In this document: positions 8,485 to 42,274 of the stretch, piece by piece
How positions within the stretch are numbered: position 1 is the stretch's first letter
Layout of the letters: each line of letters opens with the position of its first letter
Assembly (NCBI GenBank): GCA_029571985.1
Contig: JAKQVC010000177.1
Coordinates: forward strand, 1 to 44,688
Direction of reading: 5' to 3'
Length of the DNA stretch: 44,688 bases
Source: Bacteroidota bacterium
GTDB lineage: Bacteria > Bacteroidota > Bacteroidia > Chitinophagales > BACL12
Notes under the pieces: model-generated
Told to the model about the DNA's origin: nothing
Databases searched by the model: none
The model's input: only the letters and a program-made list of their open reading frames with translations
Program-made: the position numbers and the translations under genes

Positions 8485-8504
8485 GTTCTAAAAAATTTGA
8501 ACCT

Positions 8505-8535
8505 TAAAGATACCGATTCTTGATAGAGAAACAAA
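8505..8535 (-). promoter_or_regulatory. Promoter of the Omp28-like gene
   Basis: On the minus strand, TTTG (8535-8532) stands 19 bases before TATCTTTA (8512-8505), seven of eight bases of the -7 element. The start codon lies about 20 bases downstream. Confidence 0.65.
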
Positions 8536-8545
8536 TGTGTACACA
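8536..8545. promoter_or_regulatory. 10-bp palindrome TGTGTACACA
   Basis: A perfect palindrome immediately upstream of the -33 element of the Omp28-like gene and 46 bases before the -33 element of glcD. It could be an operator for either promoter, but a 10-bp palindrome can arise by chance. Confidence 0.3.
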
Positions 8546-8580
8546 AAGGTTTTGGCGGTAAACAGCTCCCACAGGGGCGT

Positions 8581-8597
8581 GCACAACTTCTTTGTGC
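8581..8597. promoter_or_regulatory. Inverted repeat over the glcD -33 box
   Basis: GCACAA and TTGTGC are perfect inverted arms separated by CTTCT. The right-hand arm region includes the -33 TTTG at 8591-8594, so a protein bound here would block the promoter. This is the arrangement expected of a repressor operator, but no regulator is identified. Confidence 0.4.
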
Positions 8598-8622
8598 GCT
8601 TGCGGGAAGCCGTATACCTTTG
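8591..8622 (+). promoter_or_regulatory. Promoter of the GlcD-type oxidase gene
   Basis: TTTG (8591-8594) and TACCTTTG (8615-8622) are exact matches to both Bacteroidetes promoter elements with a 20-base spacer. The ATG at 8628 begins five bases after the -7 element, so the transcript should be leaderless or nearly so. Confidence 0.8.
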
Positions 8623-8627
8623 ACGTT

Positions 8628-10028
8628 ATGTTTACGAAGTTGACCTCTGAAGACATTCAGCACTTTAAACATATTGTTGGCGATACATGGGTGTCTGTTC
8701 AACAGGAAGATTTGTTGCATTATGGGAGCGACGAAACGGAAGATTTAAACTTTCCGCCAGAGGTGGTCATTAAACCCCGAACACCACTGGAGATTGCTGC
8801 CATTATGCAGTGGGCACATGCACGCTATATTCCGGTTACCCCAATGGGTGCCAGAACGGGCCTTAGTGGCGGCGCATTACCTGTTTTTGGAGGTATAGCG
8901 CTGAGTATGGAGCGATTTAACCGGATTCTGAACATTGATGAACGCAATTTGCAGGTTACCACCGAACCGGGCGTGATTACAGAGGTGTTGCAGGAGGCAG
9001 TTAAGGCCAAAGGATTATTTTATCCTCCCGATCCGGCAAGCAAAGGGTCTTGTTTTATAGGAGGCAATGTTTCTGAAAATTCCGGTGGTCCGAAAGCAGT
9101 GAAATACGGAGTGGTGAAAGATTATGTGTTAAACCTGGAAGTCGTATTGCCGGATGGTGAAATCATCCAGACCGGTGCCAATGTGCTTAAAAATGCAACC
9201 GGATACAACCTCACACAATTACTGGTGGGTAGCGAAGGCACACTGGGCATCATTACTAAAATAGTTTTGCGCCTGATACCTTACCCACAACGGGATTTTT
9301 TAATGCTCATTCCCTTTGGATCAGCAACGGATGCCTGTGCTGCAGTTAGTGCCATTTTTCAGGCAGGAATAACACCCAGTGCGATGGAATTTATGGAGCG
9401 GGATGCCATTGAATTTGTATTGATGCATAACCCGGATTTACATATGGATTTACCCGCAGATGTACAGGCACATTTGCTTGTTGAGGTGGATGGAAATGAT
9501 GAAGAAATACTGATGCGCGATTGCGAAAAAATTGCAGAGGTCGTTTCAGCCTATCATGCGGGTGAAATGCTTTTTGCCCAATCAGAGCGCGAAAAACAGG
9601 ATTTATGGCGCATCCGTAGAAAAGTGGGAGAGGCGGTAAAGCAACATTCTGTTTACAAGGAGGAAGATACGGTTGTGCCCCGGGCTGAATTGCCTGCTCT
9701 GCTAAAAGGCGTAAAAGAAACAGGTCTGAAATACGGCTTCAGGTCTGTGTGTTATGGACATGCCGGTGATGGTAATCTGCATGTAAATATTTTGCGCGGC
9801 GATTTGTCGGACCATGCCTGGCAAACCACGCTCACAGAAGGCATCCGCGAGATATTTCAACTCGTCGTACAACTCGGCGGCACCATCAGCGGCGAGCACG
9901 GAATTGGCTGGGTCCAAAAGCCCTTCATGCCAATTGCCTTTTCATCCCGACAGTTGCAACTTTTTAAACACATTAAAGCGGTTTTCGATCCGAAGGGCAT
10001 TCTTAATCCGGGTAAGGTTATTGATTGA
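8628..10028 (+). CDS. glcD: FAD-linked oxidase, glycolate/D-lactate oxidase GlcD type
   Basis: The 466-residue protein belongs to the FAD-linked oxidases that act on 2-hydroxy acids such as glycolate or D-lactate and pass electrons to a carrier or quinone. The FAD-binding domain (about 40-215) shows VTPMGARTGLSGGAL (70-84), FYPPDPASKGSCFIGGNVSE (131-150) and VGSEGTLGIITK. The C-terminal oxidase domain has CYGHAGDGNLHVNI (375-388) and GTISGEHGIGWVQKPFM, both family signatures. No iron-sulfur cysteine cluster is present, so it is the GlcD-type subunit rather than a GlcF fusion. The start at 8628 is fixed by the promoter and by alignment with the usual N-terminus; the frame opens at 8592 inside the promoter. 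No glcE or glcF lies beside it. Substrate cannot be chosen between glycolate and D-lactate. Confidence 0.9.
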   Translation: MFTKLTSEDIQHFKHIVGDTWVSVQQEDLLHYGSDETEDLNFPPEVVIKPRTPLEIAAIMQWAHARYIPVTPMGARTGLSGGALPVFGGIALSMERFNRILNIDERNLQVTTEPGVITEVLQEAVKAKGLFYPPDPASKGSCFIGGNVSENSGGPKAVKYGVVKDYVLNLEVVLPDGEIIQTGANVLKNATGYNLTQLLVGSEGTLGIITKIVLRLIPYPQRDFLMLIPFGSATDACAAVSAIFQAGITPSAMEFMERDAIEFVLMHNPDLHMDLPADVQAHLLVEVDGNDEEILMRDCEKIAEVVSAYHAGEMLFAQSEREKQDLWRIRRKVGEAVKQHSVYKEEDTVVPRAELPALLKGVKETGLKYGFRSVCYGHAGDGNLHVNILRGDLSDHAWQTTLTEGIREIFQLVVQLGGTISGEHGIGWVQKPFMPIAFSSRQLQLFKHIKAVFDPKGILNPGKVID

Positions 10029-24832: not shown

Positions 24833-25201
24833 ATGATCCAGCAAGAATCCAGACTAAAAGTAGCTGACAACAGCGGAGCACGTGAAGTATTATGTATTCG
24901 CGTTCTCGGTAGCACACGCAGACGTTATGCGTCTCTCGGTGATAAGATCATTGTTACCGTGAAGGATGCACTTCCGGGCGGTGGTGTCAAAAAAGGAACC
25001 GTTTCAACTGCAGTAGTAGTGCGCACACATAAAGAAGTGCGTCGTAAAGATGGTTCTTATATCCGTTTCGACGACAATGCTTGTGTATTACTCAACGCAT
25101 CTGACGAACCACGCGGCACACGTATCTTCGGACCAGTTGCCCGTGAACTGAGAGATAAACAATTTATGAAAATCGTTTCATTAGCACCGGAGGTGTTATA
25201 A
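24833..25201 (+). CDS. rplN: 50S ribosomal protein L14 (uL14)
   Basis: L14 contacts the 30S subunit and is a docking point for silencing factors. The 122-residue protein has [40 protein letters not shown] and the end [18 protein letters not shown]. It starts the spc section; rplX begins two bases after it. Confidence 0.99.
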
Positions 25202-25203
25202 TT

Positions 25204-25551
25204 ATGAAGAACGCAGCAAATAACGACCGTTTTCAACCAAAGTTTCATGTGAAAAAGAATGATACTGTGGTAGTTATTACGGGGGCAGACAAAGGCAAAA
25301 AAGGCCGTGTTGTTGAAGTGGATGCAACAAAAAGCCGTGTATTGGTTGAAGGAGTAAATATTATTTCTAAACATACACGTCCAACACAACAATATCCGAA
25401 TGGTGGCATCATTAAAAAAGAAGCACCTATTCATATCAGCAATGTGATGCCAGTTGATCCGAAAACAGGAAAAGGCACACGTGTTGGCCGCAAAACAGAA
25501 GGCGGTAAGTCAGTAAGAATTTCAAAAAAATCAGGAGAAATTATTAAATAA
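25204..25551 (+). CDS. rplX: 50S ribosomal protein L24 (uL24)
   Basis: L24 initiates 50S assembly. The 115-residue protein carries the KOW motif region [20 protein letters not shown] and [20 protein letters not shown]. Its stop codon overlaps the start of rplE by one base. The N-terminus is slightly longer than in E. coli. Confidence 0.97.
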
Positions 25552-26105
25552 TGGAAACCAGGACCCCACGTCTAAAGAAACTGTACCATGATGAGGTGGT
25601 AAAGGGCTTACAGGAGAAATTCCAGTATAAAAGCTCTATGCAGGTACCTAAGCTGGTGAAAATTGCCATTAACCAGGGTTTAGGCGCTGCCACGCAAGAT
25701 AAAAAAGTGGTAGATGTTGCCATCGACGAATTAACCAGAATTACCGGTCAGAAAGTAGTTCCGACTATTTCGAAGAAAGCGATTTCGAACTTCAAGTTGC
25801 GTGAAAATATGCCAATCGGTGCACGCGTGACTTTGCGCGGTGATAATATGTATGAGTTCCTCGACAGATTTATCTCTGTAGCATTACCTCGTGTTCGTGA
25901 CTTTAAAGGCGTAAATAATAAAAGCTTTGATGGTCGTGGTAATTATACCATCGGTATTACTGAGCAGATTATCTTCCCGGAAATCGATATCGATAAGATT
26001 ACGAAAATCACCGGTATGGATATCACTATCGTAACTACCGCAGAAACCGATGCAGAAGCATATGAATTATTAAAAGGATTGGGAATGCCATTCCGCAAAT
26101 CATAA
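25551..26105 (+). CDS. rplE: 50S ribosomal protein L5 (uL5)
   Basis: L5 binds 5S rRNA and bridges to the 30S head. The 184-residue protein has [34 protein letters not shown] and [20 protein letters not shown], with the end [12 protein letters not shown]. The start overlaps the stop of rplX by one base. Confidence 0.98.
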
Positions 26106-26114
26106 TATCAACGC

Positions 26115-26384
26115 ATGTCCAAGAAATCAGTAATAGCAAGAAATAACAAGCGTCAGCAAATGATTGCAAAATATGCTGAGCGCCGTAAACAACTGAAAGC
26201 TGAAGGTAAATGGGATGAACTGGATAAACTTCCACGTAATGCCTCACCTGTGCGCTACAAAAATCGTTGTAAGCTTACCGGACGTCCTCGCGGTTATGTT
26301 GGTGACCTCGGTATTTCCAGGATTAAATTGCGCGACCTTGCCTTATATGGTAAGATCCCGGGCATGACAAAAGCAAGTTGGTAA
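26115..26384 (+). CDS. rpsN: 30S ribosomal protein S14, zinc-free form (uS14)
   Basis: S14 is a late-assembly protein of the 30S head. This 89-residue form is the long, zinc-independent type: the CxxC pairs of the short form are absent and only one Cys (RCKLTGRPRGY) remains. SPVRYKNRCKLTGRPRGYVG and FG-like GISRIKLRDLA are conserved. A usual state for Bacteroidetes. Confidence 0.97.
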   Translation: MSKKSVIARNNKRQQMIAKYAERRKQLKAEGKWDELDKLPRNASPVRYKNRCKLTGRPRGYVGDLGISRIKLRDLALYGKIPGMTKASW

Positions 26385-26413
26385 TTCAAAGACATTTGTA
26401 AACGAATCGAAAG

Positions 26414-26815
26414 ATGAAAGTAACAGATCCAATAGCAGATTTCCTGACCAGGATCAGAAATGCCCAGAAGGCAAATCACAGAATCGTGGAAATCCCGTCT
26501 TCTAACATGAAGAAGCGTCTTACAGAAATTCTGTACGAAAACGGATTTATCTATAAATATAAGTTCGATGCTGATGGTCCTCAGGGCACAATCAAAATCG
26601 CTCTTAAATACGATCCTGTAACTAAGGCTCCAGCCATTAAAGGTATTAACCGTATCAGCACACCAGGTTTACGCAAGTATACAGGTGCTACGGAATTACC
26701 ACGTGTAATGAGCGGCTTAGGTATCGCTATCATGTCAACTTCAAAAGGAGTAATGACAGAAAGAGAAGCAAAACGTCAGAATATTGGCGGTGAAGTACTG
26801 TGTTACGTGTATTAA
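26414..26815 (+). CDS. rpsH: 30S ribosomal protein S8 (uS8)
   Basis: S8 binds 16S rRNA in the central domain and, in E. coli, represses the spc operon. The 133-residue protein starts VTDPIADFLTRIRNAQKA and has PSSNMKKRLTEILYENGFI and the C-terminal GLGIAIMSTSKGVMTEREAK with GGEVLCYVY. Confidence 0.98.
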   Translation: MKVTDPIADFLTRIRNAQKANHRIVEIPSSNMKKRLTEILYENGFIYKYKFDADGPQGTIKIALKYDPVTKAPAIKGINRISTPGLRKYTGATELPRVMSGLGIAIMSTSKGVMTEREAKRQNIGGEVLCYVY

Positions 26816-26837
26816 TTAAAACTGAAAGTAGAACATT

Positions 26838-27392
26838 ATGTCACGAATAGGAAAGTTACCCATACAATTACCCGCAGGTGTTACAGTATCTGTAGCTGGT
26901 AATAATACGGTAACAGTAAAAGGCAAACGCGGCGATTTAACTCTGAAAGTTGATCCGGATATCACTCTGAAAATAGAGGATAGCACAGTGAAACTGGAGC
27001 GCCCGACTGAACAAAAACGTCATCGCGCTATGCATGGTTTATATCGTGCACTCCTCGCCAATATGGTGAAAGGTGTTAGCGATGGGTTCAAAAAAGAATT
27101 AGAATTGGTAGGGGTAGGTTACCGCGCATCTAATCAGGGTCAAATTCTCGAATTGTCGGTGGGATATTCTCACCCAATTATGATGATGATTCCTAAAGAA
27201 GTGAAGTTAACTACCGTTACTGAAAAAGGTAAGAATCCGATGATCATATTGGAATGTAACGACAATCAATTGCTCGGCGCTATTGCTGCAAAGATTCGTT
27301 CATTCCGTAAGCCGGAACCTTACAAAGGAAAAGGTATTAAGTATGTTGATGAAACATTACGTCGTAAGGCAGGTAAAACTGCCGGTAAATAA
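26838..27392 (+). CDS. rplF: 50S ribosomal protein L6 (uL6)
   Basis: L6 lies near the factor-binding site of the 50S subunit. The 184-residue protein begins [18 protein letters not shown], shows [20 protein letters not shown] and ends in the conserved [20 protein letters not shown] signature. Confidence 0.98.
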
Positions 27393-27403
27393 TCGGTAAA
27401 AAT

Positions 27404-27760
27404 ATGTTATCTACAAAAGCAGTAAGAAGACAAAAAATCCGCTATCGTATCCGCAAAAAAGTTGCAGGTACGGCTGAGCGTCCGCGCCTGGCGGTTTTCA
27501 GGAGCAACAAAGAGATCTACGCACAGTTGATCGATGATGTTGCTGGTCACACAGTGTGTGCCGCATCCACCGCCGACAAGCAGGGCAAATCGCTTACCGG
27601 TACTAAAACTGACAAAGCAAAAGCAATTGGTAAAAGAATTGCTGAGCAAGCCGCAGCAAAAGGCATCAGTTCAGTATCGTTTGACCGCGGAGGTTATTTA
27701 TATCACGGACGTGTAAAGGCCCTTGCGGAAGGAGCACGTGAAGGCGGTCTTCAATTCTAA
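27404..27760 (+). CDS. rplR: 50S ribosomal protein L18 (uL18)
   Basis: L18 binds 5S rRNA with L5. The 118-residue protein has [39 protein letters not shown] and the C-terminal [20 protein letters not shown] and GGLQF, all family features. Confidence 0.98.
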
Positions 27761-27774
27761 AAAGCAACAACGTT

Positions 27775-28296
27775 ATGGCAGTAAATAAAGATTTGCAAAG
27801 AGTAAGAACGAGCGAGCTCGAACTGAAAGAAAAAATCGTTGGCATCCAGCGTGTTGCCAAAGTAACCAAAGGTGGACGTACCTTCAGCTTCTCTGCACTG
27901 GTTGTAGTAGGTGATGGAAATGGTATTGTTGGCCATGGTTTGGGAAAAGCCCGCGAAGTAACTGAAGCCATTCAGAAAGGTATCGACGACGCCAAGAAAA
28001 ACCTGATTAAAGTGCCTGTTTTTAATGGAACTATTCCGCACGAACAACACGGAAAATTCGGTGCCGGTAAAGTGATGATCAAGCCTGCTGCACACGGAAC
28101 AGGTGTAATCGCCGGTGGTGCTATGCGCGCTGTGTTGGAAAGTGCAGGTGTTACCGACGTATTGGCTAAATCACTCGGCTCATCAAATCCGCACAACGTG
28201 GTAAAGGCAACTTTAGATGCACTGGCACACTTGCGCAGTCCGCTTACAGTTGCTCAAAATCGCAATGTATCTGTGAAAAAAGTATTCAACAGTTAA
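27775..28296 (+). CDS. rpsE: 30S ribosomal protein S5 (uS5)
   Basis: S5 affects accuracy of decoding and lies at the mRNA entry. The 173-residue protein has [40 protein letters not shown] and [20 protein letters not shown], all strongly conserved. Confidence 0.98.
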
Positions 28297-28306
28297 TTAT
28301 ACGCAT

Positions 28307-28486
28307 ATGGCGAAGATTAGGATAACATCAGTGAAGAGCACTACCGACAGGCCTAAAAACCAAAAGGCAACTATGAAGGCGCTCGGTTTGCGTAAAATGC
28401 ATCAAACCGTAGAAGTGGAAGCAACTCCACAAATTCTGGGTATGGTGAAAACAGTTCAACATTTGTTAAAAGTAGAAAACATCTGA
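28307..28486 (+). CDS. rpmD: 50S ribosomal protein L30 (uL30)
   Basis: This 59-residue gene fills the gap between rpsE and rplO. The product AKIRITSVKSTTDRPKNQKA followed by TMKALGLRKMHQTVEVE is the standard L30 fold and length. L30 binds 23S rRNA at the subunit periphery. It ends one base before the rplO start. Confidence 0.97.
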   Translation: MAKIRITSVKSTTDRPKNQKATMKALGLRKMHQTVEVEATPQILGMVKTVQHLLKVENI

Positions 28487-28487
28487 T

Positions 28488-28940
28488 ATGGAACTTTCAA
28501 ACTTAAAACCGGCTGCCGGTTCAATTAAGAAGCGTCATCGCATCGGTCGTGGACAAGGTTCCGGCTGGGGTGAAACTGCAGGCCGTGGTTTTAAAGGCGC
28601 AGGATCCCGCTCTGGTAATTCAACCAAGCGTGGTTTTGAAGGTGGACAGATGCCTTTGCAGCGTCGTTTACCAAAACGCGGTTTCAATAATAAAAACTTT
28701 GAAACTAAGTATACCACATTGAACCTCGACCAGATTCAGGAAATGGTAGATAAATACGAAATCACCAAATTCGATCAGGATATGCTCGTAGCCAACCGCA
28801 TCATCAAAGGTGATGAGAAGTTGAAAGTACTGGGCAGAGGCGAATTGAAAACTAAAGTGGAAATCTGGGCTCACGCCTGTAGCGAAACAGCAAAAAAAGC
28901 AATTGAAGCTGCTGGTGGATCTATTACTATGATTGGATAA
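28488..28940 (+). CDS. rplO: 50S ribosomal protein L15 (uL15)
   Basis: L15 is a late-binding 50S protein with a long glycine-rich extension reaching into 23S rRNA. The 150-residue protein has the extension IGRGQGSGWGETAGRGFKGA, GFEGGQMPLQRRLPKRGFNN and a compact C-terminal domain ending AAGGSITMIG. Confidence 0.98.
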   Translation: MELSNLKPAAGSIKKRHRIGRGQGSGWGETAGRGFKGAGSRSGNSTKRGFEGGQMPLQRRLPKRGFNNKNFETKYTTLNLDQIQEMVDKYEITKFDQDMLVANRIIKGDEKLKVLGRGELKTKVEIWAHACSETAKKAIEAAGGSITMIG

Positions 28941-28944
28941 TCAC

Positions 28945-30300
28945 ATGAAACAATTCATACAAACAATAAAAAATATCTGGAGCATCGAAGACTTGCGTAA
29001 GCGCATAGTCTACACGATTGGATTGGTATTGTTATACCGATTCGGCTCGTACGTGATGTTACCTGGTATTGACCCAACGCTTTATAACCAGGCGGCGAAT
29101 GTAAATCAGCAAAGTGGTTTACTCGGATTAATCAACCTGTTTGCAGGTGGTGGTTTTAGCCGCGCTTCTATTTTTGCGCTGGGTATTATGCCGTATATCT
29201 CTGCGTCTATCGCAATTCAATTGTTAGGTATCGCAGTTCCTGCTTTTGCACGTTTGCAAAAAGAAGGCGAAAGTGGTCGTCGCAAGATGAACCAATATAC
29301 CCGTTACCTGACGGTTGTTGTTACGGCTTTGCAGGCGAGTGGTTATTTTGCCTATTTGAAAAATCTGAGTCAGTCTACTGACTTTATTACCGCCCCTGAA
29401 GGTTTATTCTGGTTTATCTGTTTGGTTATTCTGACCGCCGGAACACTCTTCACCATGTGGATGGGTGAGCGTATCACCGATAAAGGTTTAGGTAATGGTA
29501 TTTCATTACTCATCATGGTGGGTATCGTAGCCGGATTACCAGCAGCTTTAATCAACGAGATTACACATCGCGGTGCCGATGGTGGCGGTGGATTTATTCC
29601 ATTCGTTCTGGAGATAGCCTTCCTGATTATGGTGATTATGGGTTGTATCTTGTTGGTACAGGGTACACGACGTATCCCGGTTCAATATGCTAAGCGGGTT
29701 GTTGGCAGTCGCCAGTTTGGTGGTGTGCGTCAATACATCCCGCTGAAAATTAACGCTTCGGGTGTAATGCCTATCATCTTTGCTCAGGCCCTGATGTTTA
29801 TTCCGGGCATATTTGCACAGATTAATGAAGACTGGCAAACCAGTTCATTCCTGGTTATGCTCAACGATTTTCAAAGTATTGGATATAACCTGATTTACGG
29901 TTCATTAATTATTCTGTTTACCTATTTCTATACAGCCATCATTATCAATCCAACGCAGATTGCTGATGATCTGAAAAAGAATGGTGGTTTTATTCCAGGT
30001 ATCAAACCCGGAAAGAAAACAGCAGAATTTATTGATAATGTATTATCTCGAATTACATTGCCTGGTTCAATTTTCCTGGCATTAGTGGCGATTGCTCCTG
30101 TATTTTCCCGTGCATTTGGTGTAGATACATCGTTTGCACAGTTTTTCGGAGGAACCTCACTGCTCATCATGGTGGGTGTAATTTTGGATACTTTACAACA
30201 AATAGAAAGTCACCTGTTGATGCGCCACTATGACGGACTGATGAAATCCGGCCGAATTAAAGGTCGTCAATCAGCAGCATTAAGCGTACCGCAGGGATGA
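28945..30300 (+). CDS. secY: Preprotein translocase channel subunit SecY
   Basis: SecY forms the protein-conducting channel in the inner membrane, with SecE and SecG, through which all signal-peptide proteins in this window would pass. I start it at the ATG at 28945 (KQFIQTIKNIWSIEDLRKRI, the family start); a TTG at 28933 lies inside rplO. The 451-residue protein has about ten hydrophobic segments, the plug-region motif GLINLFAGGGFSRASIFALG, IMPYISASI and the cytosolic loop VGSRQFGGVRQYIPLKINAS. Its stop overlaps the start of map by four bases (ATGA). Confidence 0.97.
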   Translation: MKQFIQTIKNIWSIEDLRKRIVYTIGLVLLYRFGSYVMLPGIDPTLYNQAANVNQQSGLLGLINLFAGGGFSRASIFALGIMPYISASIAIQLLGIAVPAFARLQKEGESGRRKMNQYTRYLTVVVTALQASGYFAYLKNLSQSTDFITAPEGLFWFICLVILTAGTLFTMWMGERITDKGLGNGISLLIMVGIVAGLPAALINEITHRGADGGGGFIPFVLEIAFLIMVIMGCILLVQGTRRIPVQYAKRVVGSRQFGGVRQYIPLKINASGVMPIIFAQALMFIPGIFAQINEDWQTSSFLVMLNDFQSIGYNLIYGSLIILFTYFYTAIIINPTQIADDLKKNGGFIPGIKPGKKTAEFIDNVLSRITLPGSIFLALVAIAPVFSRAFGVDTSFAQFFGGTSLLIMVGVILDTLQQIESHLLMRHYDGLMKSGRIKGRQSAALSVPQG

Positions 30301-31109
30301 TCTATTATAAAACACAGGATGAGTTAAACCTTATCCGAAAGAGTTCTTTACTTGTTTCTGATACACTGGCAATGATTGCCGGTATACTCAAGCCGGGTGT
30401 AACAACCGAATGGCTTGATCAACAGGCTGAAAGTTTTATAACCGGCCACGGTGGGAAGCCATCGTTTAAGGGTTATAAAGGATATAAGCACACGTTGTGT
30501 ATCTCTGTTAATGATCAGGTTGTGCATGGTATTCCATCCGCACGCGAGATTAAAAACGGTGATGTTGTATCGGTTGATTGTGGTGTATTTATGAATGGTT
30601 TTCATGGAGATTCAGCTTTCACCTTTTTGGTGGGCGAGGTTTCGATGGATGCAGTGAATCTGGCTAAAGCAACCAGAGCTTCCCTGTATAAAGGCATTGA
30701 AATGGCTATAGCCGGTAACCGTATTGGTGACATCAGCTATGCAATTCAACATTATGCTGAAACGGTTCATGGATACGGTGTAGTTAGAGAGCTGGTTGGA
30801 CATGGCATTGGAAAGAAATTGCACGAAGATCCGGAGGTTCCCAATTTTGGAACGCGAGGTCATGGTGCAAAAATGCAGGAAGGTATGACGATTGCCATTG
30901 AGCCAATGATTAATCTGGGAACCAGAAATGTGGTGCAGGAGAATGATGGATGGACTATCCGGACGAAAGACGGAAAAGTGAGCTGTCATTATGAGCACAC
31001 CGTTGCAGTGATGAAAGACAAGGCAGATATTTTGTCGAGTTTTGACCAGATTGATGCAGCCATAGCAAGTAATGTGAACTTATATAAAGAGAAAGAAACA
31101 ATAGGTTAA
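30297..31109 (+). CDS. map: Methionine aminopeptidase, type I
   Basis: MetAP removes the initiator methionine from new proteins using two divalent metals. The 270-residue protein has the five ligands: Asp94 (SVDCG), Asp105 (GFHGDSAF), His169 ([14 protein letters not shown]), Glu202 (IAIEPMI) and Glu233 (HYEHTVAV). His77 in VVHGIPS is the usual substrate-side residue. The start overlaps the secY stop (ATGA) and its stop overlaps the infA start by one base, so translation is likely coupled. Confidence 0.98.
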
Positions 31110-31327
31110 TGTCGAAACAAGGACTAATAAAACAAGACGGAACGATAACAGAAGCATTATCCAATGCCATGTTTAGAGTGAAGCTTGAAAATGAACACGA
31201 AATAGTAGCACATATCTCAGGAAAAATGCGGATGAATTATATCCGGATTCTCCCGGGCGACAGGGTTACCGTAGAAATGAGTCCATACGACTTAACAAGA
31301 GGAAGAATTATTTATCGTTACAAATAA
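31109..31327 (+). CDS. infA: Translation initiation factor IF-1
   Basis: IF-1 binds the 30S A site during initiation. The 72-residue OB-fold protein has [40 protein letters not shown] and [20 protein letters not shown]. Placed between map and rpmJ as in many bacteria. Confidence 0.98.
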
Positions 31328-31335
31328 ACAGCATT

Positions 31336-31452
31336 ATGAAAGTTAGACCGTCCATTAAGAAACGAAGTGCCGATTGTAAAATCGTGCGCCGGAAGGGTAA
31401 GCTGTATGTGATCAACAAAAAGAACCCTAAATTCAAACAACGTCAAGGTTAA
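31336..31452 (+). CDS. rpmJ: 50S ribosomal protein L36, zinc-free form (bL36)
   Basis: A 38-residue gene between infA and rpsM. The protein opens [20 protein letters not shown] and ends NPKFKQRQG. Compared with the zinc-binding form the first Cys, third Cys and His ligands are replaced by Ser11, Asn27 and Phe33, with only Cys14 left, so it cannot bind zinc. Confidence 0.97.
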
Positions 31453-31476
31453 TTCTAAAATTAGAGAAAACAATAT

Positions 31477-31857
31477 ATGGCAAGGATTGCTGGTATTGAC
31501 TTACCAAAAAACAAGAGAGGCGTAATAGGCCTCACATACATCTACGGTATCGGCCTGACTACCTCAAAGCAGATATTGGCTGGAGCCGGAGTTGATGAGA
31601 GCAAAAAAGTTAAAGACTGGAATGACGATGAGATCAACGCCATTCGTGCTTACATCAATAACGAGCTGAAGGTAGAGGGTGCACTCCGTTCGGATATGCA
31701 ATTGTCAATCAAGCGATTGATGGACATTGGATGTTATCGCGGAATTCGCCACCGTAAAGGACTTCCTGTTCGCGGACAGCGTACAAAATCGAACGCCCGT
31801 ACGCGTAAAGGAAGGAAGAAAACAGTTGCCAACAAGAAAAAGGCACCTAAAGGTTAA
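31477..31857 (+). CDS. rpsM: 30S ribosomal protein S13 (uS13)
   Basis: S13 contacts the 50S subunit and the P-site tRNA. The 126-residue protein has [33 protein letters not shown] and the end [20 protein letters not shown]. It opens the alpha section. Confidence 0.98.
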
Positions 31858-31899
31858 TCAAATTGAATCGCTGTTTAATTTCATTTATTTCCATATACA

Positions 31900-32298
31900 A
31901 TGGCTAAATCAACGTCAGCAAAAAAGTCAACGAAAAAGAGAGTTGTTAAGGTGGATGCCGAAGGTCAAGCGCACATTCAGGCATCTTTCAACAATCTCAT
32001 TATTACTTTCACGAATCTGGCAGGTCAAACAATTAGTTGGGCCAGCGCAGGAAAGGCAGGTTTCCGTGGTTCTAAAAAGAACACACCTTATGCCGCTCAG
32101 GTAGCAACATCTGAGGCAGCAAAAGTTGCCTACGATGCAGGTTTGCGTCGCGTGGAAGTTTTCGTAAAAGGTCCTGGTTCAGGTCGTGAATCAGCTATCC
32201 GTACGATCGTTGCAAACGGAATCGACGTAACTGTTATCCGTGACATTACACCAATGCCACACAACGGTTGCCGTCCACCAAAAAAGAGAAGAGTTTAA
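31900..32298 (+). CDS. rpsK: 30S ribosomal protein S11 (uS11)
   Basis: S11 lies on the 30S platform near the Shine-Dalgarno/anti-Shine-Dalgarno region. The 132-residue protein has the conserved [40 protein letters not shown] and the end [18 protein letters not shown]. The lysine-rich N-terminal extension is long. Confidence 0.98.
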
Positions 32299-32323
32299 TT
32301 AAAACTGAAAATTAACAAGAGCA

Positions 32324-32929
32324 ATGGCAAGATATACAGGCCCAACTACCAAGAAATCCAGGTCGTTTGGTGAATCCATCTTCGGCTACGACAAATCGTT
32401 CGAGAAGCGTAAATATGCTCCCGGACAGCATGGTCTTTCCCGCAAGAAGAAAAGTGCAAGCGAATACGGTATTCAGCTTAAAGAAAAACAAAAAGCTAAA
32501 TATACTTACGGATTGCTTGAGCGCCAGTTTCGCAAAACATTTGAAGCCGCTACACGCCGTCATGGTGTTACCGGTGAAGCATTATTGCAATTATTAGAGG
32601 CTCGTTTGGATAATACTATTTTCCGTATGGGTCTGGCTCCAACCCGCCGTGGTGCTCGCCAATTAGTTAATCACAAACACATTGAAGTAAATGGTCAGAT
32701 TTGCAGTGCCCCTTCTGCAACATTGCGCCCTGGTGATGTGATTACGATTCGCGAAAAATCTAAGGATCATGAGTGGATAGTAGCTGCTGCTAACAATCCC
32801 GGAAAAAAATACAGCTGGTTGGAATGGAATCCGACACAATTAAAAGGTGTATTTGTTAATTATCCTGAGCGCGATCAAATTCCTGAAAATATCAGAGAGC
32901 AACTTATCGTCGAACTCTATTCTAAATAA
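32324..32929 (+). CDS. rpsD: 30S ribosomal protein S4 (uS4)
   Basis: S4 nucleates 30S assembly. The 201-residue protein starts [20 protein letters not shown], has [20 protein letters not shown] and the S4 RNA-binding domain [32 protein letters not shown]. Zinc-free N-terminus. Confidence 0.98.
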
Positions 32930-32947
32930 ACGTAAAAACCCTATAAT

Positions 32948-33946
32948 ATGGCATTACTTTCTTTTCAGCGTCCTGATAAGATCACCTTACAAAAAGCTAC
33001 TGATTTCGAAGGTACATTCGAATTCAAACCTTTGGAACCTGGCTTCGGTGTGACCATCGGAAACGCTCTGCGCAGAGTGCTGTTGAGCTCTCTCGAAGGT
33101 TATGCGATATCTTCTGTTAAAATCAGCGGTGTTGATCATGAATTCAGCACGATTAACGGTGTAATGGAAGATGTTACTGAAATCGTATTGAATCTGAAAC
33201 AAGTTCGCCTTAAGAGAGAACTGGGTGGAGATGATAACGCGGTTGAAAAAATCTTCATCTCTTTAAAGGATAAAGAAGAATTTAAAGCAGGTGATATCGA
33301 AAAACATACAAACAGCTTCCGCGTTACAAATCCGGATTTGTTGATTTGTCGCATGGAGCCTTTTGTGAAACTCGATATCGAATTAACGATTCAAAAAGGT
33401 CGTGGTTATTTACCTGCAGAAGAAAATAAAGGTGTTGATCGCGCAATTGGTGTTATTCCAATTGACGCTATTTATACGCCAATCAAAAATGTGCGTTATA
33501 CCATTGAAAATACGCGTGTTGAGCAAAAAACTGACTATGAGAAATTGCTCATCGAAATTAAAACAGATGGTACTATTCATCCAGAGGATGCTATCAAGGA
33601 AGCAAGCCGCATCCTGATTCAGCATTTAATGTTGATTACAGATGAGCACATCACCTTTAACACAGTTGGCGAAAAAGAAGCCAATGTGGTTGATGAGCAT
33701 ACCCTGCATATCCGCAAATTGTTGAAGACTCCATTGGAAGATCTCGACTTGTCGGTTCGTGCTTACAACTGTTTGAAAGCAGCAAAAATTAATTCATTGG
33801 CTGAATTGGTAAAATACGATACTAACGAATTGTTGAAATTCCGCAATTTCGGTAAGAAATCACTGGTGGAAATTGAAGCAATGGTTCTGGATAAGGGCTT
33901 ACAGTTTGGTATGGACCTCGCCAAATATAATTTAGATGAAGATTGA
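32948..33946 (+). CDS. rpoA: RNA polymerase alpha subunit
   Basis: Alpha forms the dimer on which RNA polymerase is built and its C-terminal domain contacts upstream promoter DNA and regulators. The 332-residue protein has the N-terminal domain motif [20 protein letters not shown] and [20 protein letters not shown], a linker near 240-250, and the C-terminal domain with [20 protein letters not shown] and [20 protein letters not shown]. It lies between rpsD and rplQ. Confidence 0.99.
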
Positions 33947-33989
33947 TCGGTAACGCGTCATTTAGTAACCGATTTAAAAAAAGAAGAAA

Positions 33990-34484
33990 ATGAGACACGG
34001 AAACAAAATTAACCACCTCGGACGTAAAACAGCTCACCGTAAATCTATGTTGGGCAATATGGGTACATCTTTGATTTTGCATAAGCGTATTAAAACGACT
34101 TTAGCAAAGGCGAAAGAATTGCGTATGTATATTGAGCCGCTTATCAATCGCGCAAAAGAAGATACTACACACAATCGTCGTTTGGTGTTCAGTAACCTCC
34201 AAAGCAAAGAAGCTGTTAACGAACTGTTTACCAATATTGCCGGTAAAATCACAGATCGTAATGGTGGATATACCCGCATTTTGAAGCTGGGTGAAAATCG
34301 CTTGGGTGATAACGCTGAAACCTGCTATATTGAGCTGGTTGATTATAATGAAAACATGCTCAAAACAGCCAAGCCTGCAGGTGCTAAAAAACGCAGTCGT
34401 CGTAGCTCAGGTAAATCTGAGAAGAAAGCGGTTGAACCAGAAGCAAAAGCAGAGGATACAGCATCAACAGAAGAAAACGCGTAA
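33990..34484 (+). CDS. rplQ: 50S ribosomal protein L17 (bL17)
   Basis: L17 lies near the tunnel exit. The 164-residue protein begins [20 protein letters not shown] and has [20 protein letters not shown] and [20 protein letters not shown]. The body ends near residue 125; a charged tail of about 40 residues rich in Lys, Ser, Glu and Ala follows ([20 protein letters not shown]), longer than in E. coli. It is the last gene of the cluster. Confidence 0.98.
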
Positions 34485-36550: not shown

Positions 36551-37447
36551 CTAACTCCCCGAAATAATGATTTTTTTTGTAATTGTGAAGCTCTCAGTGT
36601 AACATACGATTAAATAGACTCCTGATTCAATATGACTACACTCAAGTTGTGTTGCATTCCCATTCAGTATTTTATTATCTATGAGTGCACCGTTTAGGCT
36701 TACGAGTTCAATATTGCCATTCATTGGTGTTGAAGATTCAAGTTTTACAAATACCGTTTCATTCGAGTAATATACCTGAAGTTCTGGTTGTAAAACAGAG
36801 TTGCTTATTAGCTTGGTAGGAAAGAATGTCTCAATAGGAGTTTCAGCAACCGATTCGAAAGCAAGATCCTTAATTGTAAATGCCCTGTTTGATGGATCTA
36901 CCGTCAAGCGCACCCAACCGTAATAGGTGCTGTCGCCTTCTGCTAATTGCAATCCGACAAATTTATCCGTTTGGCCAAATAGCCATTCTCCGGCCTGAAT
37001 AATTGGATAGTAAAATGCCGAGCTGATTATTGCATAGAATTGATACAGCAGTGTCTGATAATCATTTTGTAAAAACAAACCGGCTGATGGTCCGATATCT
37101 ATGCCGGAATCGATAACATAAGGATATACGTAAGCGCCTCCACCGGTACTGAAGGCTGCAATGGCGTTATCGTTCGTTGGTGTAGCCAGGATGGCATTAA
37201 TCACATATAGGTTAAATCCACCCCAATACGTAGAAGCAAAGAAATTGGTAGATGTAAACAGGAAATTAAAATCGTTAGTGCCATTGCCATCCAGATCAAT
37301 TTCAACTCCGGTGCCGGGTACATCAATGACTACATCTGGCACCACATCTGTATAAATCACTTCAGCATCTGTCTGTGTGTGCATACATACGGCTGCCATT
37401 GCAGTGTATGCTGCCGGACTGAGTCTGAATTGTTTATGTTCAACCAT
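36551..37447 (-). CDS. Secreted triplet-family protein, member 1
   Basis: The 298-residue protein belongs to a three-gene tandem family. Its N-terminal 29 residues (AAYTAMAAVCMHTQTDAEV) are an atypical signal region, matched in the two paralogues. It has the family motif IYTDVVPDVV, then EIDLDGNGTNDFNFLF at about 49-64, an EF-hand/TSP3-like Asp/Asn loop, and YYGWVRLTV near residue 175. The C-terminal 80 residues (LQVYYSNETVFVKLES, IESGVYLIVCY) look like a T9SS sorting domain without the PNP motif. Its start lies 13 bases beyond the previous gene's terminator, so it may depend on read-through. Function unknown. Confidence 0.75.
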   Translation of the reverse strand: MVEHKQFRLSPAAYTAMAAVCMHTQTDAEVIYTDVVPDVVIDVPGTGVEIDLDGNGTNDFNFLFTSTNFFASTYWGGFNLYVINAILATPTNDNAIAAFSTGGGAYVYPYVIDSGIDIGPSAGLFLQNDYQTLLYQFYAIISSAFYYPIIQAGEWLFGQTDKFVGLQLAEGDSTYYGWVRLTVDPSNRAFTIKDLAFESVAETPIETFFPTKLISNSVLQPELQVYYSNETVFVKLESSTPMNGNIELVSLNGALIDNKILNGNATQLECSHIESGVYLIVCYTESFTITKKIIISGS

Positions 37448-37513: not shown

Positions 37514-38437
37514 TTAATTTTTTACAAATACCTGCTTCACATAATGTGCATCATCAGCAGTAGCAACACGCACAGTGTAAACACCTGTAGAGGCGTTATC
37601 TAATGCGATTTGCATACCGTTCATATTGAGGTTGCCATTAAATACCTGCTTGCCTTGTACGTCATAAACTTGTACTGTAGCAGCAGATTGGATTTGGATA
37701 TCGTTGATGTAAATGATGTTTCCATTGCTGTAAACATTCATAGCATCAGGATTGAGGCTATTGATAGCAGATGGCTCTTCACCAGCTTCAATCATAGCAT
37801 CAGGAGTACCATTGTATGCGTAATCGATTAAAACTACTTCGATATCAGCATTGTTAACAGTACAACGAACCCAACCATAATAATCGCCACCGTCGCCGGC
37901 AAACTTAACACCTACAAATTTTTCTGTTTTACCAGGCCATGCGCCAAAAGAATAAAACTGGTAGTTAGAACCTGGGACAGGGTAGTTAGCCACGCTCAGG
38001 AAAGCACCCATGTAGATATTAGAATTTGTGTAAATAGCTGCACCGCCATCAATCTCTGAGCCAGCGTTAAGCGCTTCAGCATAAGCTAAGGTGCCACCGC
38101 TTGATGTAGAGAGTGGGTATGCAACTGCTCCGTTACCGGCAGCAGGGTAAATCTTCATTACATTGAATAAACCATCAAAGTAAACGCTGTGGTTTGTTAC
38201 AGTGTAGAAGAAATCAGGCAGAGTAAATGTTGTTACGCTGAAGGTGAAATCAACATCACCATTGTCATCCATATCAACATCAAAAGCGCCCAGTGGGAAA
38301 ACTGATTCATCCGGATCGAGGTCAGTGTAGTTGATTTGACCTTGAGCCGCTGAATGCAATAGCAGGAATGAACCCGCTAAGGAGGAATAAGCAGCCAGTT
38401 TTTTACCAGCAATGCGAGGGGTAGAAGAATTCTTCAT
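37514..38437 (-). CDS. Secreted triplet-family protein, member 2
   Basis: The 307-residue protein is the second paralogue. Signal region: KKLAAYSSLAGSFLLLHSAA. The family motif is INYTDLDPD at about 35-43, the Asp loop is AFDVDMDDNGDVDFTF (51-66), and YYGWVRCTV lies near residue 200. The C-terminal 80 residues (AMNVYSNGNIIYINDI, ASTGVYTVRVA) form a T9SS-like sorting domain with SNGN in place of PNP. The order of motifs is the same in all three genes, so they arose by tandem duplication. It would be exported and probably binds calcium at the Asp loop; role otherwise unknown. Confidence 0.8.
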   Translation of the reverse strand: MKNSSTPRIAGKKLAAYSSLAGSFLLLHSAAQGQINYTDLDPDESVFPLGAFDVDMDDNGDVDFTFSVTTFTLPDFFYTVTNHSVYFDGLFNVMKIYPAAGNGAVAYPLSTSSGGTLAYAEALNAGSEIDGGAAIYTNSNIYMGAFLSVANYPVPGSNYQFYSFGAWPGKTEKFVGVKFAGDGGDYYGWVRCTVNNADIEVVLIDYAYNGTPDAMIEAGEEPSAINSLNPDAMNVYSNGNIIYINDIQIQSAATVQVYDVQGKQVFNGNLNMNGMQIALDNASTGVYTVRVATADDAHYVKQVFVKN

Positions 38438-38725: not shown

Positions 38726-39607
38726 TTAATTAGTCAGGTGTATTTGCTTGCGATATACGCCTGTTGGGCTTTCGAGTCGCACGATATAATTGCCGGTAGC
38801 TAAATCAGAACAAGTGAAGGTGCTTGTACCGGTCAATTGGCCGAAAGATTTTACCAGCTTACCATTCAAATCGAACATGGAACCAGTGGTTTCACTTTCA
38901 TCGGCAGAAACCTGGATATTGATGGTGTTGCCAGAAGCAAATACATCAGCGTCCATAACCGATGTTGTTGTGATGTCAGTAGCCACCTGGCCGGTAAATA
39001 TGGCCTGGTTAGCCGTACTTTCATAGGCATAATCATGGATAATGATGGTGGAAGCATCTTCTGATACGGATATGCGCATCCAGCCATAATAACGGTCTTT
39101 ATCTATATTGAGTCTGAAACCGAGAAAGGCCATGTCGGTACCTAACCAAACACCACCAGAGTAAGAATAATAAGGGGCACCAAGCAGCGATACGACAACA
39201 TTGAAACCAAGGGAGGCGCTGCCTTCGGCGAATTCAAGTCCGTCGTAAATAGCAACATCATCAGCCAAAACAGGCGTATACACACCTGAATATCCGCTGT
39301 AGGTTACAAGACTTCCAACAAACTCGTTTCCATTTAATGCGGCGCCAACAACGGCTTTTACGCCATAAGTAAAGGTTAAACCAAGGTAAGTACCCGAGCC
39401 GGAGAAACTGTAAATAGAGAATGAAAAGTCGTCAGTGCCATCTTCGTTGATGTCAAGAACGGATTCGGCGCCTTCACCTCCTAACGTAATGTCAGGATCA
39501 AGGTCAGTATAAACGACAGTTGCATCGGCCTGTTGGATGCTTAAGAATGCAGTTGCACTAGCTGCATACTGCACTAAACGGGAGGTTGTAGTATAATTTT
39601 TTTTCAT
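38726..39607 (-). CDS. Secreted triplet-family protein, member 3
   Basis: The 293-residue protein is the third paralogue and first in transcription order. Signal region: RLVQYAASATAFLSIQQADA. The motif VVYTDLDPDITL is at about 31-42, the Asp loop VLDINEDGTDDFSFSI at 50-65, and YYGWMRISV near 180. The C-terminal part (ADVFASGNTINIQVS, LATGNYIVRLE) is the T9SS-like sorting domain, again without PNP. Its start lies 28 bases after the terminator of the AlkP fusion gene and no promoter is clear, so it too may rely on read-through. Function unknown. Confidence 0.8.
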   Translation of the reverse strand: MKKNYTTTSRLVQYAASATAFLSIQQADATVVYTDLDPDITLGGEGAESVLDINEDGTDDFSFSIYSFSGSGTYLGLTFTYGVKAVVGAALNGNEFVGSLVTYSGYSGVYTPVLADDVAIYDGLEFAEGSASLGFNVVVSLLGAPYYSYSGGVWLGTDMAFLGFRLNIDKDRYYGWMRISVSEDASTIIIHDYAYESTANQAIFTGQVATDITTTSVMDADVFASGNTINIQVSADESETTGSMFDLNGKLVKSFGQLTGTSTFTCSDLATGNYIVRLESPTGVYRKQIHLTN

Positions 39608-39715: not shown

Positions 39716-42274
39716 TCATTTATTAGACTTTTCGCGGTGTAAGGATTTGTCAACCACAGAGGCCATTTCCTGAATATTCAGGTTTCCGCCTAAGAAGGTA
39801 CTAACCTTAGCGAGCTCTTCAGTCGGGTTATCAATCAGGTTTCGATGGGAAACAAACAGGATATCGATATTTCCCTGCTTAGGTGCCCAATCTTTTACCT
39901 TTTGTAAGTTTTGCTGAAAAGCATTTACCAGTCGGATGTTGATGGTATCATCTTTGGCTTTGCCATCGCGCACGAGCATATGGTGCTGGCTTTTTAATAC
40001 TTCATCCAAATCGCGTTCCATGAAAATAATACGGTAGTGATAATTTGCCGGTAATTCGAACAAGAGGTGGCTGATGACTTTTACAGCCTTCCCTTTTGCT
40101 TCTTTAACCCATGCCTTATTTCGCGCCAATGATTTTACGAGTTCATGCTCATAATATCCTTTTGGATTATTTTCATCCGGTGTTCTTAAACCATCTGTAA
40201 AAATATCAAGTCCACCTTTATCCAGCATTTGCATCATCATACTTGTTCCTGAGCGTGGAAGTCCTGAAACAATTACGACATCGCCTTTGATATTTTCGCG
40301 AATAGCAGCTTTGATATCTGCAGCTTCTTCCGGTTTTTGCAAATGTTCAGCGTAGATAGTGCTGAGCAGCTGGCGTGCTTTATTTACACCCGGCGCCATT
40401 TTAATACACACTTCTAATGCTTCTGCACTTCTTTCATAGTCGCCTAATTTATACAGTGCTTCGCCTAAATGGTAATGCGCAAATGGGAAGAAATAGGTAA
40501 GACCAACACAATTTAAAAAGCTGTCAATTGCTTCTTCATATTTGCCTTTACGCAAATAGGAAATTCCAAGGCCATGATGTGCAGATGCATTTCCCGGATC
40601 GTGTTCTAATTCTTTTAAGAAGGCTGTTTCTGCTTTTTGCCAACGCTTTAAAGCGAGGTAGCATCTGCCTAACTGCATGTGCACGCGCGAAGCATTTGGC
40701 ATTTCCTGTTCGATGGCTTCAAATAATTCCATCGCCAGTTTCGGTTTGTTTTCTATCAGCAGCAGGTTACCTTCCATAACACGCATACTAATTGATTCGC
40801 GACCCTGGTTTACATTTTTTATTTTGCTGAGTACTTCTCGGGTTTCTGCCACTTTATTCATGGATTGATATGCATGTGCAAGTCGCATAGCATACCTGTT
40901 TACACCCGGATTTTCAGCCACTAATTTTTCAAGAATTTCTGCTGCTTCCGCATACTTCCTGCCATTCATATAAGAACGGGCCAGGTAGTAATTATTTTCA
41001 TTAACGGTTTGTTTAATTGCTTTTTCTACGTTTTCGTTTGGACGCTCGATATAGCCTAATTCAATCAATTGTTCCAAGGCTTCTGCAGCTGCATACGGGT
41101 CTTCTTGTTTATCGGCAGGATGTTGACCAGAATTACCAGGTATGTTATCCCAGCTTTCTACCTTTTCAGGAATAATGGGTTCTTCAAAAGCATTTACCAA
41201 AACATTACCATCCATATCGGCGCCAACCGGTAATCCATATAATGTAAGCAAGGTTGGTGTAACATCTAATATTGAAGCGCCATAAATGCGTTCATCTTTT
41301 TTAACACCCGGACCATTTAATACGAAAATTCCGTAAGGGCTGTGTTCCAATGCAGGGGCAGCCGGTTCTTTTGGTAATTCGATAGGGCGTAGGTGGTCAG
41401 GATGAAATCCGTGATCAGAAATAAGCATGACAGTAACATCTGGTCCTGCAAGTTGCAACAGACGTTCTAACATCATGTCATGAAACTTATATCCGCTAAT
41501 GACTACATCCTTGTACAGATTAAATAAATCATCCGGCACCATTGCCATTTGTGGTGGATGAAATTTCATAAATCCATGACAGAAGTGGTCAATGGCATCA
41601 TAATATACTGCGAGAAAATCCCATTCTTCATGTTCCAGAATATAGGTAGCGGCACTGTGAATGGTAGAACAATCGGCAATAATTTTGGTAAGCATGCCGA
41701 GTCGTTTATCTTTTTCCTGATCAATTTTATTTGCATCCGGAATAAACGGTAAAATATGCGCAGCAGTAAGTTCAGAAGGGTGGATGCGCATCTTTTTAAA
41801 GAGCTCTGCTTTTTCAGCAGGATGTACAGTGCCATCAAGCATTGGCCAAGGCTCATTAATTGGTTTGGAAGCGCGTTGATATAAATTGCTCACCATCGTA
41901 CCATTAATTGGTTCTGCCGGATGAGAGGGCCACCAGCCGATGACGTGGCTTTTCATATCATGTTGATTGAAAATATTCCACACCGCTTTTACCTTTCTGG
42001 AAGTAATATATGCCGGTCTTACACCTTTACCAGAAGGATCTGGTTCAGTGAAGCCGATAATTCCGTGCTTGTATGGTCGTTTTCCAGTTGAAATGGAAGT
42101 CCATAAAGTTGGTGAAAGTGGTGGGTCTAATGTTGCGATATTTCCCATCACACCGCCATTAACCAATTTTTCAAGTGTTGGCATATGGCCTGCATCCATC
42201 AGTGGACCAATTACCTTCCAATCTGCAGCATCCCATCCAATCAGGAGTACTTTTTTTGCAATACGTTTACCCAT
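39716..42274 (-). CDS. Alkaline-phosphatase-fold / TPR / sulfotransferase fusion protein
   Basis: This 852-residue protein carries three functional parts and no signal peptide, so it is likely cytosolic. Residues 1-390 are an alkaline-phosphatase/phosphodiesterase domain: LLIGWDAADW with metal ligand Asp15; LDPPLSPTLWTSISTGKRP with Ser54 at the nucleophile position; YDAIDHFCHGF with Asp229 and His233; ISDHGFHPDH with Asp287 and His288; and HSPYGIFVLNGPG with His311. All expected ligands are present. Residues about 425-655 are five to six TPR-like helix pairs (ALKRWQKAETAFLKELEHDP, ASAHHGLGISYLRKGKYEEA). Residues 660-852 are a sulfotransferase-like domain with the PAPS-binding loop VIVSGLPRSGTSMM (667-680) and IIFMERDLDEVLKSQ. 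It follows a 69-residue gene by 56 bases. Substrate unknown. Confidence 0.85.
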   Translation of the reverse strand: MGKRIAKKVLLIGWDAADWKVIGPLMDAGHMPTLEKLVNGGVMGNIATLDPPLSPTLWTSISTGKRPYKHGIIGFTEPDPSGKGVRPAYITSRKVKAVWNIFNQHDMKSHVIGWWPSHPAEPINGTMVSNLYQRASKPINEPWPMLDGTVHPAEKAELFKKMRIHPSELTAAHILPFIPDANKIDQEKDKRLGMLTKIIADCSTIHSAATYILEHEEWDFLAVYYDAIDHFCHGFMKFHPPQMAMVPDDLFNLYKDVVISGYKFHDMMLERLLQLAGPDVTVMLISDHGFHPDHLRPIELPKEPAAPALEHSPYGIFVLNGPGVKKDERIYGASILDVTPTLLTLYGLPVGADMDGNVLVNAFEEPIIPEKVESWDNIPGNSGQHPADKQEDPYAAAEALEQLIELGYIERPNENVEKAIKQTVNENNYYLARSYMNGRKYAEAAEILEKLVAENPGVNRYAMRLAHAYQSMNKVAETREVLSKIKNVNQGRESISMRVMEGNLLLIENKPKLAMELFEAIEQEMPNASRVHMQLGRCYLALKRWQKAETAFLKELEHDPGNASAHHGLGISYLRKGKYEEAIDSFLNCVGLTYFFPFAHYHLGEALYKLGDYERSAEALEVCIKMAPGVNKARQLLSTIYAEHLQKPEEAADIKAAIRENIKGDVVIVSGLPRSGTSMMMQMLDKGGLDIFTDGLRTPDENNPKGYYEHELVKSLARNKAWVKEAKGKAVKVISHLLFELPANYHYRIIFMERDLDEVLKSQHHMLVRDGKAKDDTINIRLVNAFQQNLQKVKDWAPKQGNIDILFVSHRNLIDNPTEELAKVSTFLGGNLNIQEMASVVDKSLHREKSNK

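Follow-up and report, generated by a model that had tools for sequence, protein, structure and literature searches.

Several described systems resemble parts of the enzyme reported here. In eukaryotes, protein tyrosines are sulfated by TPST, a Golgi enzyme that prefers acidic sequence, and the ENPP/NPP phosphodiesterases and PafA are extracytoplasmic enzymes. O-GlcNAc transferase and SPINDLY use a TPR superhelix to feed protein substrates to a C-terminal transferase, and in the PEP-CTERM or IPTL-CTERM/exosortase systems one enzyme serves many surface proteins that share a tag, the whole being spread by co-inheritance. By analogy, we regard RaxST/RaxX of Xanthomonas as the nearest functional parallel, in which the gene of a bacterial PAPS sulfotransferase lies next to that of the secreted peptide on which it acts, RaxX, and this peptide is sulfated on tyrosine (PMC6637879). 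Here we analysed a window of 44,688 nucleotides from a Bacteroidota bacterium, in which alkaline phosphatase (AlkP), TPR and sulfotransferase domains are found in one polypeptide; no description of this combination was found in the literature searched, nor any of TPR sulfotransferases or of the midcut name.

The 852-residue reading frame that a sequence-only reading had placed at 39716..42274 is present and runs on the minus strand, which that reading had left out, from an ATG at 42274 down to 39716 with zero internal stops. The protein is cytosolic and begins with the first AlkP strand, without a hydrophobic signal peptide, as had been claimed. Its N-terminal AlkP-superfamily domain is NPP/PafA-like (residues 1-390; 41105..42274, minus strand), with Ser54 as nucleophile and D15, D229, H233, D287, H288 and H311 as ligands, and is matched by Phosphodiest (PF01663) over residues 9-292 (1.4e-24, 87.7 bits against a gathering score of 23). 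The TPR linker was confirmed as a superhelix (residues 426-645; 40340..40999, minus strand) in which several Pfam TPR models exceed their gathering score over residues 429-629. The C-terminal domain (residues 665-852; 39719..40282, minus strand), which had been proposed to be a sulfotransferase, scores above the cut-off with both Sulfotransfer_3 (PF13469; 5.3e-10, 40.4 bits against 27) and Sulfotransfer_1 (PF00685; residues 667-844, 4.7e-8, 33.2 bits against 22). In an NCBIfam scan of the enzyme, the matches listed were all partial, of TPR type and below cut-off. The 5'-phosphosulfate-binding loop SGLPRSGTS is at residues 670-678, as reported (40241..40267, minus strand), and is followed by the 3'-phosphate-binding motif R754...S762 (RDLDEVLKS; 39989..40015, minus strand), whose Arg-to-Ser spacing of 8 is that of cytosolic sulfotransferases. 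Profile scores and PAPS motifs together place this domain among the PAPS sulfotransferases, and sulfate transfer is its predicted activity. At 24833-34484 of the window, upstream of the enzyme region, ribosomal protein genes form an operon of the usual kind, together with secY and rpoA-like genes.

Structure prediction, which had been put forward as a check, gave an AlphaFold model with three folded parts (mean pLDDT 89.8, pTM 0.81). In a structure search the AlkP part matched PafA with a Z of 27.4 and ENPPs with a Z of 26-27 (rmsd 2.6-3.5 over 270-320 residues), and in Foldseek the TPR part matched OGT and designed TPRs. The matches listed for the whole enzyme were dominated by TPR and AlkP folds and barely covered the residues past 596, and searching the PDB by sequence with each domain alone returned weak matches only (phosphonoacetate hydrolase, 0.002; SULT1B1, 3e-4). 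Residue counts in the alignment of the best 80 of 340 relatives showed both sites to be intact. All seven AlkP residues are kept at the positions previously assigned to them, D15 being a gap in three rows whose sequences end at a contig edge and the count for S54 being biased since it lies within the search pattern; G671, R674, G676, T677 and S678 of the PAPS loop, R754 and S762 of the 3'-phosphate motif, and E709 and K732 are invariant, and the TPR part is far more variable than the catalytic sites. No C/S-x-P-x-R formylglycine-sulfatase motif is present at the AlkP nucleophile stretch, LDPPLSPTLWTS, and the AlkP half is thus disfavoured as a classical sulfatase. From the NPP-like folds that the model matches, a nucleotide (PAP, PAPS) or else a phosphodiester would be the favoured candidate substrate of this half.

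Scanning 84,980 species genomes for the peptide patterns of the family gave 353 stretches, 340 of which encode relatives, and the best 80 were kept. The sequence-only reading had also asked how often this domain order occurs; the longest match spans all three domains in 78 of the best 80 of 340 loci, the two exceptions being L058, which is cut off by the contig edge towards the end of the last domain, and L064, which is split near residue 651. Relatives have full-length homologues with the same domain order at 45-85% identity, and the homologue loci include Bacteroidota, Acidobacteriota, Proteobacteria, Nitrospirota, Chlorobiota and Planctomycetota. The enzyme was found in 2 of 296 genomes in a wide Bacteroidota sample, i.e. 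it is rare among well-sampled genomes. From this comparison, the AlkP-TPR-sulfotransferase order is an old and conserved architecture across several phyla and no one-genome curiosity. Chance fusion of two genes, or their joining by a frameshift or in assembly, which was named earlier as the finding that would overturn the claim if located near residue 655, has next to no probability: no support for it was found, only L064 breaking the frame, whereas one open frame with the identical order is seen in nearly all of the 94 loci (14 + 80), from many assemblies. With the order conserved full length in 78 of the best 80 of 340 loci, across several phyla, neither a frameshift nor a join accounts for it.

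Among the genes around the best 80 of 340 loci one neighbour family stands out, with 96 genes in 59 loci, a minority of these genes having joined via unrelated domains. They are secreted proteins, and most of these partners have a signal peptide approximating KLxxYSxxAGxxxAxxxxAxAQ, with a nearly invariant tyrosine in an [L/I]xxY element. Among the 72 loci whose downstream sequence is long enough to show it, 39 have a same-strand gene with this leader within 250 bases downstream, and where no partner adjoins the enzyme a leader protein is often encoded elsewhere in the genome, again with the tyrosine. The window contains three leader-tagged secreted partners directly downstream of the enzyme, all on the minus strand. 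Partner 1 (293 aa; 38726..39607), which has a T9SS C-terminal domain and whose family is conserved beside the enzyme, is directly downstream and has its leader Tyr14 (RLVQYAASA) encoded at 39566..39568. The model of partner 2 (307 aa; 37514..38437; Tyr17 codon at 38387..38389, KLAAYSSLAG) shows a leader helix, a beta-sandwich body and a T9SS C-terminal domain, and in partner 3 (298 aa; 36551..37447; Tyr14 codon at 37406..37408, SPAAYTAMAA) the motif is slightly shifted. A T9SS sorting domain is present in 29 of the 37 partners scanned and IPTL-CTERM in two, and a fold search with the partner body gave clear matches for the T9SS C-terminal domain only. A leader-tagged protein with IPTL-CTERM is encoded in a Bacteroidota locus (L084:5613-6758), this signal being otherwise found here in the Nitrospirota partner L101. 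The genome of the window (G000) has 21 leader matches over many contigs and a single enzyme; ~18 further partner paralogues are on its contigs C4, C23, C35, C60, C99, C132, C138, C181, C223 (partly in tandem), C224, C241, C243, C245 and C268.

A profile of the leader only (E<1e-3) found proteins in 15 of 17 enzyme-positive relatives but in none of the 44 that lack the enzyme (61 genomes; Fisher p 1.9e-12, a value that overstates independence because the genomes are related). In two of the positives, G016 and G031, the enzyme gene is incomplete because it meets the end of a contig; G031 and G035, whose leader is divergent (L080), are the positives without a profile match, and two marginal leader matches in enzyme-negative relatives are unrelated proteins. 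In 294 further enzyme-negative genomes there was no match below 1e-3 to a leader containing the tyrosine, and the only other leader matches in the 296 further genomes were at 3.5e-4, without the tyrosine part, and at 0.005. A profile of the mature body, by contrast, found proteins in seven enzyme-negative genomes, whose readable N-termini are ordinary lipoprotein or Sec signals, with the leader absent. We set aside the invariance of the tyrosine in two of our alignments (A3 and A7), as their rows had been picked by that tyrosine, and used body-selected proteins instead: the leader tyrosine is present in about 98 of the 102 from enzyme-positive genomes (checked by eye), the exceptions being L113, with Leu in its place, L054 and L095, which lack the leader, and L050, where the codon is a stop; Phe was not seen at this position among the ~102. 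The L050 protein is a reverse-strand ORF (7137-9494) with the stop at the leader-Tyr codon site of its close relatives, and may be a pseudogene, an assembly error or something else. The mature-end tyrosine (YTDxxPD) also occurs in several enzyme-negative proteins and is therefore a feature of the body, less likely as the enzyme-linked acceptor; the enzyme-linked tyrosine is that of the leader. Exceptions to the pairing are Halobeggiatoa (G063) and a proteobacterium (G067), which have the enzyme and a body protein with no clear leader, and neither leader nor body protein was found in the Planctomycetota genome G066 or in the Beggiatoa-type G061 and G065.

The leader also follows the phylogeny of the enzyme. 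Enzyme clade II consists of Saprospiraceae with the Acidobacteriota loci L045 and L056 nested inside (support 0.77), and the distance from the tyrosine to the cleavage site is mostly 26-50 residues in this clade and mostly 14-17 in clade I, including Nitrospirota and Proteobacteria (Mann-Whitney p 2e-6, for related sequences that are not independent). In this sequence comparison, leader and enzyme evolve together, with the spacing following the enzyme clade even across phyla. It may still be asked if the sulfotransferase acts on a surface glycan, a lipid or a small molecule, with the leader proteins merely co-regulated and using or binding the product, since many bacterial sulfotransferases use small molecules or glycans and the partners, with their T9SS signals, belong to the cell surface. 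We consider this unlikely, because the enzyme co-occurs with the cytosolic leader and not with the body domain, which exists without the enzyme, and because the leader type follows the enzyme clade. The sulfated metabolite proposed in the sequence-only reading is not supported as a target; the operon partners and the phylogenetic profile point to one dedicated family of secreted proteins whose leader bears a tyrosine.

As for the co-substrate, an APS kinase gene is located 3 bp downstream in L066 and after the leader gene in L045 and L056. APS kinase is encoded in 17 of 17 enzyme-positive relatives but also in most enzyme-negative relatives, so that it does not discriminate between them and shows only that PAPS should be available.

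The fusion gene is duplicated in G027, G006, L091 and L093. In one clade of copies (support 1.0) none of the seven AlkP ligands remains, but VSGLPRSGTSMMMQ and the R/S pair are retained, whereas the sister copies (support 1.0) keep every AlkP ligand and have a sulfotransferase loop that is decayed in G027 (SSFKEGGDHE) and partly so in G006. In G027 the copies have fully divided the labour between them; in the other three genomes they have so far done so only in part. Paired paralogues with complementary site loss were noted at L205 (G027:C339:4000-18000), L206, L207, L091 and L093, and genomes with the duplicated fusion also encode free-standing proteins, ~390 aa long, that have a sulfotransferase domain of this kind (L208:292-1461, 38%; L091:16932-18080, 34% identity). 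As the losses after duplication are complementary, both activities appear to be required together, in one process. The original proposal of a dual-activity enzyme that edits or recycles a sulfated metabolite is thus retained for its two intact catalytic domains and their joint need, and dropped for its metabolite. The AlkP half might only recycle the co-substrate, hydrolysing PAP (or excess PAPS) and so relieving product inhibition with no role on the protein; its closest folds are nucleotide pyrophosphatases/phosphodiesterases, and a requirement wherever the transferase occurs is in keeping with the complementary decay. A separate PAP phosphatase would suffice for this, however, and the obligatory fusion (78 of the best 80 of 340) exceeds that need; on balance we find such a restricted role somewhat unlikely.

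The explanation that we prefer, and to which we give an even chance of being right, is a cytosolic, leader-directed protein-sulfating enzyme with an AlkP half that edits or recycles. One family of surface proteins would be made with a signal peptide bearing the [L/I]xxY element, and the TPR superhelix and the sulfotransferase domain would recognise this leader on the unexported chain, a role in recognition that we infer from co-occurrence and co-evolution. The sulfotransferase domain would sulfate the protein from PAPS, the likeliest acceptor being the leader tyrosine or a nearby residue. Both the modification of a protein residue and the choice of this residue are suggested by the transferase family and the tyrosine, and the nearly invariant leader tyrosine is consistent with a protein-tyrosine acceptor. 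The NPP-like AlkP domain would act in the same cycle, by ester removal (editing) or by clearance of PAP/PAPS, and the protein would be exported by Sec and then sorted to the surface, by T9SS in Bacteroidota and by IPTL-CTERM elsewhere. Against this explanation, signal peptidase should remove the part that contains the leader tyrosine, so a sulfate placed there would not show on the mature protein, which is a difficulty unless the mark is transient.

A rival reading is a reversible export gate, in which the leader tyrosine at the n/h border of the signal peptide is sulfated and blocks entry into Sec, and the AlkP domain takes the sulfate off again once the protein is to be exported. The tyrosine is the sole residue invariant in both leader types, with no Phe replacing it, its spacing to the cleavage site is constant in type I leaders, and both activities are retained in one scaffold; nevertheless, we judge the gate improbable, since AlkP-fold desulfation normally proceeds via formylglycine whereas the nucleophile here is Ser54, in a site of NPP type, and type II leaders place the tyrosine far from the hydrophobic stretch. 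That one enzyme adds sulfate to a signal-peptide tyrosine and removes it, reversibly timing the export of surface proteins, would be a new protein-export control system if true, and we regard it as very doubtful.

Returning to the leader-directed sulfation that we prefer, the pairing of enzyme and leader suggests a so far undescribed system by which surface proteins are modified ahead of their export. If one sulfotransferase is indeed paired with a whole family of surface proteins that share a tag, bacterial protein sulfation would reach well beyond RaxX, and a new kind of N-terminal tag would be suggested. The leader provides a search key for substrates and the duplicated lineage a natural separation of the activities, both of which make the biochemistry directly testable. 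Compared with the known systems, RaxX is one small peptide, whereas here ~20 surface proteins have the [L/I]xxY signal peptide, and RaxST is not known to be fused to a TPR or AlkP domain. Set side by side by general features, TPST has a PRSGT-type PAPS loop like the enzyme here, but the leader tyrosines, unlike the acidic sequence preferred by TPST, have mostly basic or neutral neighbours. The ENPP/NPP phosphodiesterases and PafA have their fold and two-metal ligand set in common with the AlkP domain (Z 26-27), which is here cytosolic, has a Ser nucleophile and is fused to TPR and sulfotransferase domains. O-GlcNAc transferase and SPINDLY are matched by the TPR part but transfer a sugar rather than sulfate and have no AlkP domain. 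Finally, some of the partners themselves carry the IPTL-CTERM signal, and the arrangement of one enzyme with many tagged surface proteins is like that of the PEP-CTERM and IPTL-CTERM systems, although the tag here is N-terminal and forms part of the signal peptide, and the enzyme is no protease.
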